Below are positions 1 to 15,543 of a DNA stretch of 25,666 nt, one piece after another. Below the pieces are notes generated by a model that did not search any database, had not been told where the DNA came from, and worked only from the letters and a program-made list of their open reading frames with translations. Both the position numbers and the translations under genes were made by a program. The stretch spans positions 25,571-51,236 of the forward strand of contig NYYH01000018.1 of assembly GCA_002686705.1 (NCBI GenBank), in the 5' to 3' direction. The stretch comes from Bacteroidota bacterium (GTDB lineage Bacteria > Bacteroidota > Bacteroidia > Bacteroidales > F082). Position 1 is the first letter of the stretch, and each line of letters starts with the position of its first letter.

Positions 1-2946
1 GAGAATAAAAAACCTGCACAGAAGTATTCATCCCTTATTAAGGCACTTAATTTTGACAATGCAACTCTCATTAACCGTTCTCAAAAACTTTTATCGTTAA
101 TAATTCATAATTATGATGAGTTTGCTATAAGCACCATAGATTCTTTCATCCACAGGGTAATAAGGACATTCGCTACCGATGTTCAGCTCCCACAAAATTT
201 TGAAGTTGTAATTGATGATGACGAAATAATTCCTGATATAATTCAAAATTTGTACGACAAGGTAGGTGCTGATAAAGAGCTAACAAAAGTGTTAATCGAT
301 TTTGTGCTTTCACAAGCCGATGAAGAAAATAGTTACGATCCCACTAACAAGCTTGTTGACTTTATTAAACATCACATGTATGAGGATGGATTTCAACATA
401 TTAGCAAACTTGACAATCTCAACATCAGTCAACTTGGCAGTATAATCATCAGGTTAAAGAAGAAAATTAACATTGAAAGATCAAAAATAATTCAAGATGC
501 ATCCGATGCTATTAACCTGGTCGAAAACAACAATTTAGAGATCGGAGATTTTTTTGGCGGTAAAAATGGAATAATGGGCTATTTCACTAAACTGAAAAAA
601 TTTAATATTCCTGATGAAAAGCTTTTTCCCGGAAAAACGGCTCAGAAAACAATAGATGAGAACTGCTGGTTTGGTTCAAAAGCAAATGCAAAAGTACAAC
701 ACGCAATTAGTAATATTGTATCCGAGTTAGTCGATTATTATAATAATATCTTAAAAACAGTAGATAGTTATTTTTTTCATCGATTAATTTACAGTAAGAT
801 ATATTCACTGGCATTGGTTCATGAAATTAAAACTCTGTTTACCGAATATACTGAAAAAACCGGCAAGGTTCATATTTCAGAGTTTAACAAAAAGATAAGT
901 GCTGAAATCGCAGATCAACCTATACCATTTATTTATGAACGCCTTGGCAGAAGATATCGGTACTTTCTTATAGATGAATTCCAGGATACTTCGTTATTAC
1001 AGTGGTACAATCTGCTACCACTTATTGAGGAATCACTTTCTTACGGAAATTTCAATATGCTTGTTGGTGATGCTAAACAAGCGATTTATAGATTCAGAAA
1101 TGGCGAAGTAGAACTTTTTTCAAATCTCCCAAATTTATATGCTAATGATGGCTCTCAATTATCTCTTTCCCGTCAAAATATTTTACAAAGAGAATATGAA
1201 CAGATTATATTATCATCAAACTGGAGATCAACAAGTGAGATTATAAAATTCAATAACGATTTTTTCCAAACAATTATTGAACCTCTTTCGGAAAGAACCA
1301 AAGTGATTTTTGAAAATCATAAACAAGAAATTCCTGACATCAACAAAGGACCCGGATTGGTTTCATTGAACTTTGTTGATGAAGATCAGGCTGACGTTTA
1401 TGAACAAAAGAAGCTTCTAAAAATTGCTAATTTTATAGAAGAACTCAAGGATAAAGGAACCAAAGAAAAAGATATTTGCATACTCTGCAGAACTGGAAAA
1501 AATGCCATCAGCATTTCCGAATTTCTTCTCGAGAAGAACTACAATGTCGTTTCATCTGAATCACTTCTTCTTACAAATTCACCTAAAGTAAGACTAATAA
1601 TTGCGTCTTTCAGATTACTTGTTTACCCTGATAACGAACTGGCTTTAGCAGAATTTTTGGAAAACTACCTAAGTATTATTTCCCAAACCGAATCATTTGA
1701 TGATGAATTCAGGGCAATTCAAAAGAAAAGTAATTCTGGAATTAATAAAATCTTTGATCACTTCAATATAAGGGCCTTACCAGAAGATATACTATCGCTA
1801 TCCACATATGAAATTGCTGAATTTATCCTGACTGACATTGTACATCAAAATACTGCTGATGTATTCATCCAATACCTACTGGATTTTATTCTCGAAACAA
1901 AATTACCGTTAGATAAGTTTATTGAACGTTGGGAAGATAAAAAGGAAAAACTTTTTATAACAATGCCAGAGGATATTGACGCAATCCAGGTAATGACTAT
2001 ACACAAAGCAAAGGGACTTGATTTTCCAGTGGTTATTGTGGATGCAGCAAATGTTAAACGCACTAACACTAAAAACGAATATTGGGAAGATATTAATCTC
2101 ACCGAGTTTGAAGATCTTAAAGTTGGTCTTTTTCCACTTACTAGAAAAATAGAACATATAAACAAAGGTCATATTTATGAGCAAGAAGTGGCAAAAACTG
2201 AACTCGACTTTTTAAACCTCATTTATGTTGCTTTTACGCGTCCAATAAAAGTATTGTACACAATTGCCCAAGTTAAAAGTGGTAATCCTAGAGATAAGTT
2301 TGCCGATTATATGATCTACTATTTAAAGAATAAGGGATTGTGGGAAGATGATAAAATGAGTTACAGTTTTGGAGAACTTACCCATAGTGAATCAACTACA
2401 GAAAAAAGTAGTAGCCAAATAATAAAATTAAATACATTTATTTCTTCTAAGTGGCAGGATTTGATTGCTGTTGCTTTTTCCGATGATATTGTTCAAGAAG
2501 CATTAATAGGTACATCTTCAAGATCATACGGAAAGCTAATACATAAGATACTATCAGAAATTGAATCTACTGAAGATATTACGAATGCAATATATTTTTT
2601 AACAATATCAGGCATGCTTGATATTAAAAATATTAAGATAATTGAAGATACAATCATAAACGTAGTATCTCATCCTGATTTGCAAAAGTTCTTTGATCCT
2701 GGTCAAGTAATAAAAAATGAAACAGAAATTATGCTTAGTAATGGTGAGGTTGTGAGACCAGATCGTGTAGTTATCCAAAATGATGTGCTTACAATTATTG
2801 ATTACAAAACAGGTGAAGAAAAGAAGCAGGATTACGACCAAATGAAGAAATACTATGAAGCATTTTCAGGGCTTGGTTATAAGGAAATTGCAACTAAAAT
2901 TGTATATATATGTGATATTATCAGAGTTGTAGATGGTCTTAGATAA
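1..2946 (+). CDS. AddA/RecB-type UvrD-family helicase-nuclease (5' truncated by window edge)
   Basis: The reading frame is open back to base 1, so the first apparent start (TTG at 250) is internal and the gene begins outside the window. 981 codons are visible. Superfamily 1 helicase motifs occur in order: DEFQDTS (Walker B, about residue 325 of the visible part), GDAKQAIYRFR (III, 356), NWRS (IV, 407), TIHKAKGLDFP (V, 666) and YVAFTRP (VI, 742). Walker A must lie upstream. The early STIDSFIHRVIRTFA stretch is typical of the Bacteroidota versions. The C-terminus carries a RecB-type PD-(D/E)XK nuclease: PDRV (D921), IDYKTG (D934, K936) and QMKKYYE (947). Known members process double-strand DNA ends for RecA recombination, usually with an AddB-like partner, which would be expected upstream. 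It ends with TAA about 200 bp before the tricorn-like gene. AddA and RecB cannot be told apart from this fragment. Confidence 0.93.
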   Translation, partial: ENKKPAQKYSSLIKALNFDNATLINRSQKLLSLIIHNYDEFAISTIDSFIHRVIRTFATDVQLPQNFEVVIDDDEIIPDIIQNLYDKVGADKELTKVLIDFVLSQADEENSYDPTNKLVDFIKHHMYEDGFQHISKLDNLNISQLGSIIIRLKKKINIERSKIIQDASDAINLVENNNLEIGDFFGGKNGIMGYFTKLKKFNIPDEKLFPGKTAQKTIDENCWFGSKANAKVQHAISNIVSELVDYYNNILKTVDSYFFHRLIYSKIYSLALVHEIKTLFTEYTEKTGKVHISEFNKKISAEIADQPIPFIYERLGRRYRYFLIDEFQDTSLLQWYNLLPLIEESLSYGNFNMLVGDAKQAIYRFRNGEVELFSNLPNLYANDGSQLSLSRQNILQREYEQIILSSNWRSTSEIIKFNNDFFQTIIEPLSERTKVIFENHKQEIPDINKGPGLVSLNFVDEDQADVYEQKKLLKIANFIEELKDKGTKEKDICILCRTGKNAISISEFLLEKNYNVVSSESLLLTNSPKVRLIIASFRLLVYPDNELALAEFLENYLSIISQTESFDDEFRAIQKKSNSGINKIFDHFNIRALPEDILSLSTYEIAEFILTDIVHQNTADVFIQYLLDFILETKLPLDKFIERWEDKKEKLFITMPEDIDAIQVMTIHKAKGLDFPVVIVDAANVKRTNTKNEYWEDINLTEFEDLKVGLFPLTRKIEHINKGHIYEQEVAKTELDFLNLIYVAFTRPIKVLYTIAQVKSGNPRDKFADYMIYYLKNKGLWEDDKMSYSFGELTHSESTTEKSSSQIIKLNTFISSKWQDLIAVAFSDDIVQEALIGTSSRSYGKLIHKILSEIESTEDITNAIYFLTISGMLDIKNIKIIEDTIINVVSHPDLQKFFDPGQVIKNETEIMLSNGEVVRPDRVVIQNDVLTIIDYKTGEEKKQDYDQMKKYYEAFSGLGYKEIATKIVYICDIIRVVDGLR

Positions 2947-3149: not shown

Positions 3150-6100
3150 ATGATGATGAAAAAAATACTATTAGGATTTGTACTTGCTATCAGCTTAAAC
3201 TTAATGGCACAAGAAGACGCAAGGTTATTAAGATTCCCTGCCGTGCATGGACAAAAAGTTGTTTTTACTTATGCTGGAGACTTATATCAGGTGCCATTAT
3301 CCGGAGGAACAGCTCGTAAACTTACCAGTGATGTTAATGGTTATGAGATGTTTGCCCATTTTTCACCTGATGGAAAGAGCATAGCTTTTACAGGACAGTA
3401 TGATGGTAATACAGAAGTATTTATTATTCCTTCAAAAGGTGGTATTCCACAGAGGTTAACATATACGGCTACCCTTAATCGGGATGATATTTCAGACAGG
3501 ATGGGACCGAATAATATCGTTATGGCATGGCGAAATAATGAGGAAATAGTATATCGTTCACGTAAACAATCATTCAACTCATTTAAAGGACAGCTATTTC
3601 AGGTGAGTAAAAACGGAGGTCTTTCAGACGAATTACCTTTTACATCTGGTGGATGGTGTACTTTTTCTGACGATGGCAAGAAAATGGCTTACAACAAGGT
3701 TTTTCGTGAATTCAGAACATGGAAATACTACAAAGGCGGAATGGCAGATAATGTATGGATTTATGATTTTGTAACTAAAGAAACAATAAATATTACAAAT
3801 AATGATAATCAGAATATCTTCCCCATGTGGCATGGTGATAAAATATATTTCCTTAGTGATCGTGACAGAACAATGAACTTGTTCGTTTATGATCTGAACT
3901 CTAAAACTACTACCAAAATAACTAACTACACAAACTTTGATGTTAAGTTTCCTTCACTTGGCAATGAGTCAATAATTTATGAAAACGGTGGTTACATCTA
4001 CAACTATAATTTTGCCGATGAAACGATTACAAAAATCACAATTAATATTAACAATGATTTTACTACTGGAAGAGATGAACTAAAAGATGCGTCAAAATTT
4101 ATTAATTCATGGGCAGTTTCTCCGGATGGTAAACGGGTTGTTTTTGGAGCTCGTGGAGATGTATTTACAGTTCCTGGTAAATCAGGTATCACACGTAATC
4201 TAACTGGCTCATCTGGTGTACATGACAGAAATGTTGAATGGTCGCCAAAAGGAGAATTTATATCATTTATTAGCGACAGAACAGGCGAGGATGAGATTTA
4301 CATCCAAAACCAAAATGGAATGGAAGATGCTATACAGTTAACTTTTAATTCCGATACTTATAAATACAATCCAATCTGGTCTCCTGATGGTAAAAACCTT
4401 CTTTGGGGTGATAAAATGGGTAATTTGAGTTATATTAATATTGATACGAAGAAAGTTGTACTAGTTGATGAATCAGATTCATGGGAGGTACGAGATTATA
4501 ATTGGTCGCCCGATAGCAAATGGATAGCTTATACATTACCACAAACGTTTGGAGTTAATCGCATATTGATCTACGACACGAAATCTAGTGAATCAAAACC
4601 TGTAACCGATACATGGTACAATTCTGGTCAACCAGCATTTGATTCAAATGGTAAATATCTATTTTTCACATCAGCTCGCGATTTTAATCCAATCTATAGT
4701 AACACAGAATGGAATCATGCATATCGCGATATGAGTAAGATATATTTTGTCACTCTAGAAAAAAGTACCCCATCACCATTTGAACCTGAAAATGATGAGG
4801 TGAGTGTTGAGAAAGAAGCAAAACCTGAAAAATCAGAAACCAAGGATAAAAAAAGTGATAAGGATAAAGGCGAAACAGAAACTGATGAATTAACCGTAAA
4901 AATTGACTTCGATGGAATAATAAATCGAATTATTAAACTTCCGGTTAAAGCTGGTAACTATTGGCAAATTACAGCAATTGATAACAATGTATATTTCAAT
5001 CAGTATATATCTGGAGGTAATGGTACTAAACTAATGCTGTACAATTTAAAAAACCAAAAAGAAACTGAACTTGGCGATGTTGGTTCGTACATAGTCTCCG
5101 CCAACTATAAAAAGATGTTTGTAAATGTTAAGGGTAAATATGCGGTAATAGATCTACCAAAAGGGAAGGTCAAACCAACTAAATTCCTTGATTTGACAAA
5201 CATGAAAGTAATGGTTAATCTCAAAGAAGAATGGGGTCAAATATATGATGAATCCTGGAGACAAATGCGTGATTTCTTCTATGCTCCAAACATGCATGGG
5301 GTTGACTGGCCATCTATAAAGGAGAAATACTCAGTACTTCTTCCATATGTAAACAACCGCAACGATCTTAATTATATAATCGGTGAGATGATTGGTGAAC
5401 TTAGCGTTGGTCATTCATACGTACTTGGTGGTGATAAACCCAAACCTAAACGCATAAAAACCGGTTTGCTTGGTGCTAAGATCAGCAAAGATAAATCAGG
5501 CTATTTTGTAATTGATGAAATACTTGCAGGTGAAAATTGGACAAGGGGTACAAGATCCCCTTTAACAGAAGTTGGTGTTGACGTAAACGAAGGCGATTAT
5601 ATTATTGCAATTAACGGTAGTTCTGTGAAGGATGTTGACGACATATATAGTTTACTACTAGGAACAGATGGACAACAAGTTGTATTAACCGTAAACTCAA
5701 AAGCTGATACAGATGGATCGCATGATATAATTGTTATTCCAACAGCTAATGAAGCTGGACTATATTATTACACTTGGGTTATGAATAACACTGAAAAAGT
5801 GAACAAGGCCACAGATGGACAAGTTGGCTATATTCACATTCCTGATATGGGAAGAGGAGGATTAAATGAATTCGTAAAACATTTCTATCCACAGTTAAAT
5901 AAAAAGGCTTTAATTATTGACGATCGTGGGAATGGAGGTGGTAACGTATCACCGATGATAATAGAAAGGCTTAACCGTGAGCTTTCTCTCTACGGAATGT
6001 CAAGAAACAACGCCGTTAACACTAAACCACGTGGAATGATGCTTGGCCCAAAAGTATTGCTTTTAGACAATTATTCAGCTTCGGATGGTGACCTATTCCC

Positions 6101-11606: not shown

Positions 11607-13796
11607 ATGAGCACTATAAATATCACTGAAAAGCAATCTTTAACTGTTCGTTCATTAACAATAGTCAAAAAAATTCTTTACGAAAATCCTGAAATAAATG
11701 AGATAATTTCTTCCTCAGATTCTTATGAGGTGGCATTAACAAAATTGAGAGAAAAATTATTTTCTTATTTAAAAGCCAATCCAGCAGCTAACAACTACTA
11801 CAATAATGAATTTTCTGATTCAGTTAAAAATATTTCATGGAAAGGTGTTGGTATAATTAGATTACTAAATTATATTGATTATGAAGGCTCTTCCTTTCTC
11901 GATCCTAACAGAAAAAACATACCCAAAATAAGTCGTCCGATAAAAAACCTATATAATGCTGTAAAATTTGGCAAAGGTGATTGCAATAGAGACTTTTTTC
12001 TTGACCTACTTTTTCTATTCAGACAAATTAATGGTAGATTAAAACAAAAACTACCATCTGAAGCTAAAATTAAGGCATGGATGTCAAAATATCCTTCTGG
12101 GCTATCTGAAAAAATAATTGCTACCCGAAAAGAGAATAAGAAAAGAATAATAAAAGTAATTATTGAACAAATAAGTTCAGGAGAGCAAATAAGCAAACGC
12201 TATTTCTTTGATGATGGAATGTCAGCTGCTGAAAAGTATAAGCGGGCATTAATCTGGTGGAATGACTACAGGTTTCATTTACGATTTGCTGTTAGAACAC
12301 CTAATCAGCTTAATCGAATGCTCGATTACTCATTACGCCCTCATAGATTACAGATACTTAATGCCGCGCAACAGGCTGGTATACCAATTTTTATTAATCC
12401 ATATTATCTGTCGTTAATAAATGTGAATATTAAACAGGGTAAAACTAGATCTGATAGGACTATACGTGATTATGTTTTTCATAGTCGCGAACTGGTTGAA
12501 GAGTTTGGCAACATAGTAGCATGGGAAAAAGAGGATGTAGTAGAACCAGGGAAACCAAATGCAGCCGGTTGGCTACTACCTTCATTTCACAATATTCATA
12601 GGCGTTATCCGGAAGTAGCCATTTTTATTCCTGATACACGCGGGAGGGCTTGTGGTGGCTTATGTGTTTCTTGCCAGCGTATGTATGATTTTCAGAGCGG
12701 ACATCTGAATTTTAACCTTGATAAACTAACTCCGAAAATTAAATGGAAGAAAAAGATGAAGATGTTGTTAGAATATTTTGAGGAAGACACTCAACTTCGC
12801 GACATACTTATTACCGGTGGTGATTCATTTATGAATACCGAAGAATCGCTACAGGACATTTTTGATGGAATTTACGATATGGCATTAAGAAAGAAGAATG
12901 CTAATACTGATCGTCCCGATGGTCAAAAATATGCAGAAATTACACGTATTAGACTCGGCACAAGATTACCTGTATATCTTCCACAACGTATTACAAAAGA
13001 ATTTGTTAGAGTGCTTGCTGATTTTAAAAGAAAAGCATCTGAAATTGGCATTAAACAGTTTATTGTTCAAATTCATGTTCAGGCAGCGATTGAAATAACT
13101 CCTGAAATGAAAGAAGCGGTGTCTCGAATTTTAGCTGCCGGATGGATGGTGACTAACCAAGTAGTTTTTACAGCAGCTGCTTCACGAAGGGGGCATACTA
13201 ACAAACTGAGAAAAGTCCTTAATGATATCGGGGTTATATCATATTATACTTTTTCTGTGAAGGGATTTATGGAAAACTATCACAACTTTGCAACTAACGA
13301 AAGATCGGTACAAGAGAAAACTGAAGAGAAGATAATAGGGAAATTGGGTAAGGAATTGCTTAATCAAGTAGCTGATTTGTACGTTGATGCAGAACATGCT
13401 CAAAAGAACCTGGCTGATATCAGAAAAGCACATAAATTACTCTTTTTAGCAACCGACAAGAATGTACTTAATATGCCAGGTGTTGGAAAAAGTATGCGAT
13501 TTAACACAATTGGGATCACTAACGACGGCAGAAGAATTTTAGAGTTTGGTCACGACCTGAAACGAAGACACAGTCCTGTGATTGACAAAATGGGAAAAGT
13601 TGTTATAATTGAATCCAAGTCGATTGCAGCCTATTTAGAACAAATGGAAAACATGGGCGAAAACCCTCAAGATTATTCAACCATATGGGGATATTCATCA
13701 AATGGCTCAGAAGAAAGAGTGCCAGTTTATAATTATCCAGAATATGATTTTAAAATCACAGATAAGCTAACAAATTTTGAAGAAGAGGGAGTTTGA
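11607..13796 (+). CDS. KamA-family radical SAM protein (lysine 2,3-aminomutase-like, long form)
   Basis: 729 residues, against roughly 420-470 for classical lysine 2,3-aminomutase. The radical SAM cluster motif is C349-x3-C353-x2-C356 within RACGGLCVSCQR, placed over 200 residues later than in the classical enzyme, so there is a long N-terminal extension. KamA-type signatures follow: ILITGGDSF, RLGTRLPVYLPQRIT, IHVQAAIEITPEM and NQVVFTAAASRRGHTNKLRKVL. MPGVGKS (K628) sits where classical enzymes hold the PLP-binding lysine. Known relatives move an amino group between adjacent carbons of lysine or glutamate. The substrate of this long subfamily is unknown to me, so the name lysine 2,3-aminomutase should not be applied without testing. 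It has its own promoter and Shine-Dalgarno sequence, and converges on the thioesterase gene with 14 bp between them. Confidence 0.85.
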   Translation: MSTINITEKQSLTVRSLTIVKKILYENPEINEIISSSDSYEVALTKLREKLFSYLKANPAANNYYNNEFSDSVKNISWKGVGIIRLLNYIDYEGSSFLDPNRKNIPKISRPIKNLYNAVKFGKGDCNRDFFLDLLFLFRQINGRLKQKLPSEAKIKAWMSKYPSGLSEKIIATRKENKKRIIKVIIEQISSGEQISKRYFFDDGMSAAEKYKRALIWWNDYRFHLRFAVRTPNQLNRMLDYSLRPHRLQILNAAQQAGIPIFINPYYLSLINVNIKQGKTRSDRTIRDYVFHSRELVEEFGNIVAWEKEDVVEPGKPNAAGWLLPSFHNIHRRYPEVAIFIPDTRGRACGGLCVSCQRMYDFQSGHLNFNLDKLTPKIKWKKKMKMLLEYFEEDTQLRDILITGGDSFMNTEESLQDIFDGIYDMALRKKNANTDRPDGQKYAEITRIRLGTRLPVYLPQRITKEFVRVLADFKRKASEIGIKQFIVQIHVQAAIEITPEMKEAVSRILAAGWMVTNQVVFTAAASRRGHTNKLRKVLNDIGVISYYTFSVKGFMENYHNFATNERSVQEKTEEKIIGKLGKELLNQVADLYVDAEHAQKNLADIRKAHKLLFLATDKNVLNMPGVGKSMRFNTIGITNDGRRILEFGHDLKRRHSPVIDKMGKVVIIESKSIAAYLEQMENMGENPQDYSTIWGYSSNGSEERVPVYNYPEYDFKITDKLTNFEEEGV

Positions 13797-15138: not shown

Positions 15139-15169
15139 CAAAGGTATTGTAATAAAGATTAATTATCAA
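15139..15169 (-). promoter_or_regulatory. Housekeeping promoter of the MORN-repeat gene
   Basis: On the minus strand TTG (15169-15167), 20 bases, then TACCTTTG (15146-15139) fits the Bacteroidota TTG-N20-TAnnTTTG consensus exactly. It lies 22 bp upstream of the chosen ATG, which supports that start. It is downstream of the terminator at 15249-15288, so the MORN gene does not depend on read-through. Confidence 0.72.
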
Positions 15170-15248: not shown

Positions 15249-15288
15249 AAAAAAAGAACAGGCCGGAGAGAAGGACTCTTCCGACCTG
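15249..15288 (-). terminator. Intrinsic terminator, minus strand
   Basis: On the minus strand a stem of nine pairs (CAGGTCGGA with TCCGGCCTG, one G-U) is extended by three pairs after a single bulge, with a 5-nt loop. The sequence TTC and then seven T residues follow. The T run is only on the minus side, so it stops leftward transcription. It is 385 bp beyond the rimO stop codon but only about 55 bp beyond the predicted start from the sigma-54 promoter at 15355-15370. Confidence 0.82.
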
Positions 15289-15344
15289 AATCAACCAAAA
15301 CCAATTTTTCAATCACAATTAGGCCTACTGCTTATATTGTAATA
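15249..15344 (-). ncRNA. Candidate sigma-54-dependent small RNA
   Basis: A strong minus-strand -24/-12 promoter (15355-15370) predicts a start near 15344, and an intrinsic terminator ends at about 15249, giving a transcript of about 95 nt. I found no convincing open reading frame in it. The first half is AU-rich and could be single-stranded; the second half is the terminator hairpin. This promoter-terminator unit with no gene inside is the classical look of a bacterial small RNA. It is inferred from signals only; no known RNA family was recognised. Confidence 0.5.
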
Positions 15345-15354
15345 GCCCTTACAA

Positions 15355-15370
15355 AGCAATTCCTATGCCA
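15355..15370 (-). promoter_or_regulatory. Sigma-54 (RpoN) -24/-12 promoter, minus strand
   Basis: The minus-strand sequence TGGCATAGGAATTGCT, preceded by TT and followed by TTG, matches the sigma-54 consensus TGGCAC-N5-TTGCW at all key positions, with GG and GC exactly 10 bases apart. It lies in non-coding DNA, 304 bp after rimO. No coding start follows before the terminator at 15249-15288. Confidence 0.72.
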
Positions 15371-15437
15371 AATTTTTTAATTAATTGATTGAAAACCTAT
15401 TAGAAATAACTTCAAAATAAACACACAAATTAATTAC

Positions 15438-15543
15438 CCGATTTCATAAACTTAAAATCGGAAACTAACAAAATGTATCCGTTATCGTAGTGAATAATAC
15501 TAATCAAATGTTAGAAATGTATCGGTTTTTTACTTTAACCGAT
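15438..15543 (-). promoter_or_regulatory. Cluster of CCGAT/ATCGG elements upstream of the sigma-54 promoter
   Basis: Within 106 bp are an inverted repeat CCGATTT (15438-15444) with AAATCGG (15455-15461), a CCGTTATCGTA site (15479-15489), and a second inverted repeat ATCGGTT (15521-15527) with AACCGAT (15537-15543). They share the ATCGG/CGnnATCG core of the two sites before the tricorn-like gene and lie about 95-200 bp upstream of the predicted small-RNA start, where activator sites are expected. Alternatively the two inverted repeats are hairpins in the 3' end of the rimO transcript. The rest of 15371-15673 is AT-rich and shows no coding sequence. Confidence 0.4.

Follow-up and report, generated by a model that had tools for sequence, protein, structure and literature searches.

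A candidate sigma-54-dependent small RNA gene with a conserved upstream palindrome in Bacteroidota

To our knowledge, little is known about the small RNAs of Bacteroidota, and less still about their control. In a 25,666-nucleotide stretch of a Bacteroidota genome (hereafter, the window), the minus strand carries a -24/-12 promoter motif followed by an intrinsic terminator between rimO (ORF 16960-15674) and a MORN-repeat gene (ATG at about 15118). This arrangement raises the question of whether the region holds a free-standing gene for a small RNA under RpoN (sigma-54) control, as a sequence-only reading had proposed, or whether its promoter and terminator belong to the neighbouring genes. The features of the unit and the adjacent -7 box are as follows.

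15356..15370, minus strand: -24/-12 promoter TGGCAT-AGGAA-TTGC, read directly from the sequence as TGGCAT (15370-15365), N5 and TTGC (15359-15356), with an equivalent in 38 of 39 loci
about 15250..15344, minus strand: small RNA of ~95 nt, from alignments and model matches, with a predicted start
15311..15343, minus strand: predicted 5' hairpin of the RNA, from folds, its sequence varying among loci
15285..15309, minus strand: near-invariant stretch AAAAATTGGTTTTGGTTGATTCAGG, from alignments and folds, a candidate pairing region
15249..15288, minus strand: intrinsic terminator, with a hairpin (15288-15259) and a T-rich tail, from the sequence and stem covariation
15139..15146, minus strand: -7 box TACCTTTG of the MORN-repeat gene, a TAnnTTTG match outside the RNA unit

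The promoter was confirmed on the minus strand with the exact spacing that had been claimed for it. Following the usual sigma-54 numbering, the predicted +1 was placed at ~15344, 12 bases past the C of TTGC. The terminator hairpin, CAGGTCGGAAGAGTCCTTCTCTCCGGCCTG (15288-15259), begins 56 nt past this position, close to the earlier estimate of about 55 nt, and is followed on the same strand by TTC and then by T7 at 15255-15249. In line with the claimed lack of an open reading frame, no ATG frame is present in the RNA (15344-15250). The fold of 15345-15245 has a z of -2.3, with 3 of 200 shuffles equally good; the segment between the 5' hairpin and the terminator ends in TTGGTTTTGGTTGATTCAGG on the minus strand of the window, and folds predict AAAAATTGGTTTTGGTTGATTCAGG to be unpaired up to CAGG, where the terminator opens. 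The window contains a single exact copy of the promoter, and two matches with at most one mismatch were found vs 1.8 expected. The promoter motif within the window alone is at chance level, and its evidential weight therefore rests on conservation among homologues.

A promoter of the MORN gene itself had been placed beyond the terminator. TACCTTTG is the sole match on the minus strand within 15400-15080 to TAnnTTTG, the -7 consensus given for Bacteroidota in PMC9723704, and 34 such matches occur in the whole window on both strands. A -7 box is thus present where the promoter had been placed, while its role as the promoter of the MORN gene is plausible but unproven. Elsewhere in the window, a perfect TTGACA-16-TATAAT lies at 13582-13609 on the plus strand, inside a long coding frame, and is probably a chance match because these bacteria use another promoter consensus. 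An amidohydrolase-like protein is split in two adjacent frames on the minus strand (24104-23619 and 23611-23033), which could reflect a frameshift, a sequencing error or two genes.

A comparison of RimO sequences yielded a single close relative, L001, a metagenome-assembled Bacteroidetes genome whose RimO is 79% identical; in it, TTGGCACATGAATTGCA, TTTGGTTTTGGTTGATTCAGGTCGG and a terminator stand behind rimO (L136). When 149 genomes related to L001 were searched with BLASTN, 35 had matches, a part of which were coding or due to chance; the core with a T tract after it is present in 25 loci as well as in the window. In the resulting alignments (A1 and A2), almost no variation is seen in the 3' half, AAAATTTGGTTTTGGTTGATTCAGGTCGG..CCGGCCTGTT-T(n); the 5' part is variable. 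A covariance search across relatives, of the kind that the sequence-only reading had suggested, was performed with a model (R2) of the conserved 3' half without the promoter, built from 23 of the 26 sequences. Across 173 family genomes it found a match in 55 at E<=0.01 and in 37 at E<2e-6; as 25 of these 37 were already in the first BLAST set, only 12 were new through the model. The surroundings of the 37, of 10 weaker family matches and of one class-scan match were fetched and searched again, leaving out the matches in G050, G052, G059, G067, G070, G872, G876, G921 and G932 and the second matches in G031 and G037. We defined the family as 39 loci, comprising every match that scored 45 bits or more (in 37 genomes and in the window) and L131 of G014 (35.3 bits), which was retained on account of its rimO/MORN neighbourhood as well as its promoter and palindrome; nine matches without those features, L128 with 41.7 bits and eight weaker ones, were rejected.

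Across the 39 loci, 99.0% of the cells of the terminator stem are paired and three of its eight pairs are changed on both sides, values reached by none of 500 shuffles, in an alignment that had been fitted to that structure. At L131, the letters of the stem are largely replaced, with the pairing and the upstream stretch kept. The 5' hairpin is missing from the RNAalifold consensus of the family alignment. No Rfam family reached its gathering score in the whole window, and at E<=5 only L20_leader, RF_site2 and SNORA18 were reported around the RNA, all far below their gathering scores. The class and order scans sampled a larger group and can miss diverged copies: a longer model (R1) gave 42 of 395 class genomes at E<=0.01, G001 being the sole strong match and the others all weak, and the core pattern matched in 13 of 393 order genomes, exactly in G001 only and with two mismatches in the other 12, vs nine matches for the reversed control. 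Among the 30 R1 class matches listed, several are gene-end terminators or lie within genes. Viral contigs contained no exact core.

The promoter was sought in a span of ~120 bases before the model match and at its start. [TC]GGCAY-N5-TTG is present in 38 of the 39 loci (37 of 38 without L131, a figure independent of the choice to keep that locus), with dinucleotide shuffles averaging 0.10 and never exceeding 2, and 15 of the 39 have the strict form TGGCAY-N5-TTGC. Spacers of 2-4 or 6-8 instead of 5 were found at no locus. None of the nine rejected model matches has the promoter, a contrast that is partly circular because rejection was partly based on its lack. The sole family locus without the promoter, L156 (G066), has AAGCAT-N5-TGA 62 bases before the core; since the promoter-to-core distance is 51-111 in the other loci, this box stands at a normal distance and looks like a decayed promoter. 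The RpoN DNA-binding domain scored over the cut-off in 91 of the 95 relatives searched, including all 28 carriers of the RNA among them. Loss of the promoter and hairpin in relatives, which had been named as evidence that would speak against the small RNA, was sought and not found. Taken together, the conservation of the promoter, its spacer, the RNA core, the terminator and an upstream palindrome (see below) strongly supports a predicted small RNA unit with a -24/-12 promoter. The earlier proposal of a small RNA under RpoN control thus stands as regards the conserved unit and its promoter, whereas its dependence on RpoN is something that we only infer.

Some further elements lie outside the family. 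In L161 (G434, about 3400-3540; also L044), TGGCATATACTTTGT precedes a terminator and a fold of ~90 nt that is very stable (z -9.2). This locus has no such palindrome (best score, -1.5 bits) and was excluded from the family counts; it might represent a second RNA under sigma-54 elsewhere in the class. A different element, distinct from the RNA, is conserved in L128, L132, L135 and L162 (~3050-3160 of L128 and L132, with corresponding positions in the other two). It consists of GGTTTTCATAAATTTTGGTTTTTGGTTC and a terminator after it, has repeats of TTAACA and a box resembling TAnnTTTG on its upstream side, lacks a -24/-12 box and may be a further small RNA whose 3' end is similar. At three R1 matches (L055, L065 and L070), a TTTGGTTTTGG-like sequence directly precedes the terminator hairpin at gene ends, which points either to a general 3'-end module or to a bias of the model.

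Do the promoter and the terminator serve the neighbouring genes instead? rimO lies upstream in 29 of the 39 loci, as would fit a terminator belonging to rimO, with any small RNA being processed from the rimO mRNA. In six loci with 2.9-3.8 kb of upstream sequence, however, no rimO was found (tblastn, E<=1e-6), and the promoter is kept; the palindrome, too, is conserved in the family. Four further contigs were too short. An RNA consisting only of the rimO 3' tail, which the earlier reading had named as the finding that would count against it, was therefore sought and not found, and we regard this origin as highly improbable. On the downstream side, a MORN-type gene begins within 300 bases in 22 of the 39 loci and a thioesterase gene within 90 bases in four, so that the sigma-54 promoter might serve one or the other gene through a leader in which the terminator acts as a regulated attenuator. 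Yet the other 13 loci have neither gene close by and retain the promoter and the RNA, L136 has neither in 3.9 kb downstream, and the MORN gene in the window has its own -7 box, which makes a leader very improbable in our view. Considering that the promoter is kept when either neighbour changes, both a leader and a rimO tail are unlikely.

The conserved half of the RNA might, alternatively, encode a short peptide, given that in the window one frame starting from GTG or TTG codons runs open through the conserved stretch. It lacks an ATG, however, and its start overlaps the terminator stem; in addition, the conserved part differs in length by 1-3 bases in L116-L119 and L125-L126, which argues against a conserved reading frame, as do adjacent variable positions. 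A coding role thus seems barely credible. We hold with good confidence that the region contains a free-standing gene for a ~95-nt non-coding RNA, predicted to be transcribed by RNA polymerase with sigma-54, and its conservation suggests that it very probably is a real regulatory RNA.

The proposal is strengthened by an element that the sequence-only reading did not contain. When up to 260 bases preceding the promoter were analysed by expectation-maximisation in 34 loci, the palindrome TTTCCGATATCGGAAA emerged, with a log-likelihood of 185.5 under the palindromic constraint vs 25.7-29.6 in four shuffled sets, for which 120 random starts were used instead of the 250 of the real set. The near-duplicates L139, L147, L150 and L157 were left out of motif discovery, as were L161 and the promoterless L156. 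Two sites are placed in the window.

15476..15491, minus strand: UAS1, predicted activator site ACTACGATAACGGATA, from motif discovery, centre about -139
15435..15450, minus strand: UAS2 candidate TTTATGAAATCGGGTA, weak and tentative, the second-best before the promoter (4.7 bits)

UAS1 is the best site on both strands of the 25.7 kb of the window, with 16.4 bits vs 11.0 for the next; a matrix derived from 31 further loci, excluding six close relatives as well as the window, gives 15.5 and 11.7. The UAS2 candidate lies 41 bases downstream of UAS1, and an inverted repeat overlapping it (15462-15437) was labelled a terminator by a simple scan. Across loci, the palindrome starts 119-123 bases before the -24 box in 24 cases; the distance is 161-163 at four loci, 89-94 at another four and 113 at the remaining two. 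Seven of the 10 off-standard palindromes are displaced by about four or three helical turns (shifts of ~41 and ~31 bases), and such near-whole-turn shifts fit a looping enhancer-binding protein. The spacing is not in whole turns at L155 (94), L160 and L116 (113), the palindromes of L155 and L116 being low-scoring (8.2 and 7.7 bits). The palindrome is thus a predicted enhancer-binding-protein site, with a spacing that at most loci is as expected of a looping activator.

The same combination is found at a few other genes. A UAS-gap-promoter pattern gave 18 matches in 17 of the 173 genomes, vs two for the reversed control, and 12 of the 18 are the RNA locus; a second UAS pattern gave nine matches, all at the RNA, with two for its reversed control. 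At L202 (G010) and L209 (G037), the palindrome and a -24/-12 box precede an NtrC-type regulator gene, that of G010 encoding P0001 (L202 12-1367, minus strand), with receiver, sigma-54 interaction and HTH_8 domains; such a regulator gene would be either autoregulated or a target of the true activator. At L197 (G014; 1679-1822, plus strand) and L204 (G066; 1345-1473, minus strand), they precede a gene for a zinc-ribbon-like small protein of 43-48 aa with two CxxC motifs. G066 therefore carries both a copy of the small CxxC protein (L204) and the decayed-looking RNA promoter (L156). Matches L201 and L210 overlap frames on the opposite strand and look accidental.

An NtrC-family protein that most carriers have retained is the probable activator; three candidates, cluster II, cluster B and P0001/cluster IV, could not be told apart. 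All counts of activators among carriers are confounded by kinship, and absences are hints only because genome completeness is not given. With these provisos, cluster II, a receiver-type activator, was detected in 61 of 173 genomes (36 of 38 carriers and 25 of 135 others), the copy in G029 having in-frame stops. Cluster B (410 aa, without a receiver), split by length from a 387-aa group without the C-terminal helix-turn-helix, was detected in 11 of the 12 carriers searched and is the sole activator found in G003. Orthologues of P0001 occur in 53 of 173 genomes and 30 of 38 carriers; P0001 was rejected as a universal activator, no orthologue being found at E<=1e-120 in G002, G003, G007, G008, G016, G025, G029 and G041. 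Among 30 P0001-orthologue loci, the palindrome precedes five (G010, G037, G074, G080 and G086) with 12.9-19.7 bits, two of which also have a -24/-12 box, and reaches at most 8.7 bits at the other 25; G066 adds one palindrome of 15.9 bits before a P0001 orthologue. None of the three candidates is present in every carrier searched.

In the mechanism that we propose, an NtrC-type enhancer-binding protein would bind the predicted palindrome (centre about -139) and, following established sigma-54 biology, the bound activator would contact the polymerase by looping and turn the RNA on upon a signal. The near-invariant unpaired stretch is, by inference, a natural candidate for mRNA pairing, which would run through UUGGUUUUGGUUG of the RNA. 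On balance, we lean towards an RNA that acts in trans, its invariant UUUGGUUUUGGUUGAUUCAGG pairing with at least one mRNA and most likely lowering translation or stability. Bacteroidota are a phylum without Shine-Dalgarno leaders.

Across 16 carriers, the perfect complement of this region, the 11-mer CAACCAAAACC, has 124 sites, the RNA gene itself accounting for 15, vs 139 for the reversed control, showing no enrichment. Two of the 30 sites inspected lie just upstream of an open frame. A hypothesis of many targets by perfect complementarity to CAACCAAAACC was rejected on these counts, with fewer sites than in the reversed control. The 18 gene starts of the window, assigned by hand, showed no strong pairing, the lowest shuffle count being 14 of 200. 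The same RNA might instead mainly bind a protein, as a decoy or scaffold, rather than pair with mRNA. Both the missing antisense enrichment and the extent of conservation are consistent with such a role, since the conserved G/U-rich unpaired stretch together with part of the stem exceeds the need of a short seed. Nevertheless, the antisense tests used a perfect 11-mer and are blind to short or imperfect pairing, and L131 retains the upstream stretch with different letters in the stem. We consider protein binding as the main role to be rather unlikely, albeit with an appreciable chance, and continue to favour pairing with mRNA.

The sequence-only reading knew of no sigma-54 small RNA described in Bacteroidota. 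This view has to be abandoned, as Table 2A of PMC9723704 lists a 'Putative regulatory RNA Rfp36' of Flavobacterium psychrophilum under a -24/-12 (SM4) promoter, and the kind was thus already reported in the phylum. Rfp36, listed there as a table entry, resembles the window RNA as a putative regulatory RNA with a -24/-12 promoter in Bacteroidota, a likeness by description only. In F. psychrophilum, other SM4 promoters serve genes for chaperones, proteases, gliding and the envelope (PMC9723704); should the regulon of the window RNA be similar, a role in envelope or protein stress would be no more than a reasonable first guess. No further reports of sigma-54 small RNAs in Bacteroidota were found by title or abstract, in literature mostly outside subscription journals, and 'small RNA' and 'sRNA' are absent from the main text of a sigma-54 regulon survey (PMC12316311). 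The RNA family is new, having no Rfam match, and its kind is already known.

Comparable systems are found in other bacteria. GlmY of enterobacteria is likewise a small RNA transcribed from a -24/-12 promoter, with the NtrC-type activator QseF acting via upstream sites, TGT-N12-ACA in that case (PMC6075780) and TTTCCGATATCGGAAA at the window RNA. However, the qse genes that neighbour glmY are absent at the window RNA, and GlmY is a decoy for RapZ (PMC7073468), nothing comparable being shown for the window RNA. The Qrr RNAs of Vibrionaceae, from a different phylum, are likewise sigma-54 small RNAs with receiver-type activators, and one promoter may respond to two or more of these, as for Qrr1 of V. 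fischeri, activated by LuxO or SypG (PMC10162802). Neither GlmY/GlmZ nor Qrr had an Rfam model match in the window.

We tentatively propose, with slightly less than even confidence, a dedicated relay of activator, sigma-54 and small RNA, in which an NtrC-type regulator would read TTTCCGATATCGGAAA, the RNA would be its main output and the invariant UUUUGGUUGAUUCAGG would act in trans in a surface or stress response. If this is true, the regulator gene and the small zinc-ribbon protein would be further targets in some lineages, and the relay would be a convergent counterpart of GlmY and Qrr. In the window and in 38 genomes besides it, the whole predicted control module, comprising the activator site, promoter, RNA and terminator, is readable from the sequence, and it would provide a second case in Bacteroidota beside Rfp36, with predictions on the activator, the signal and the targets.
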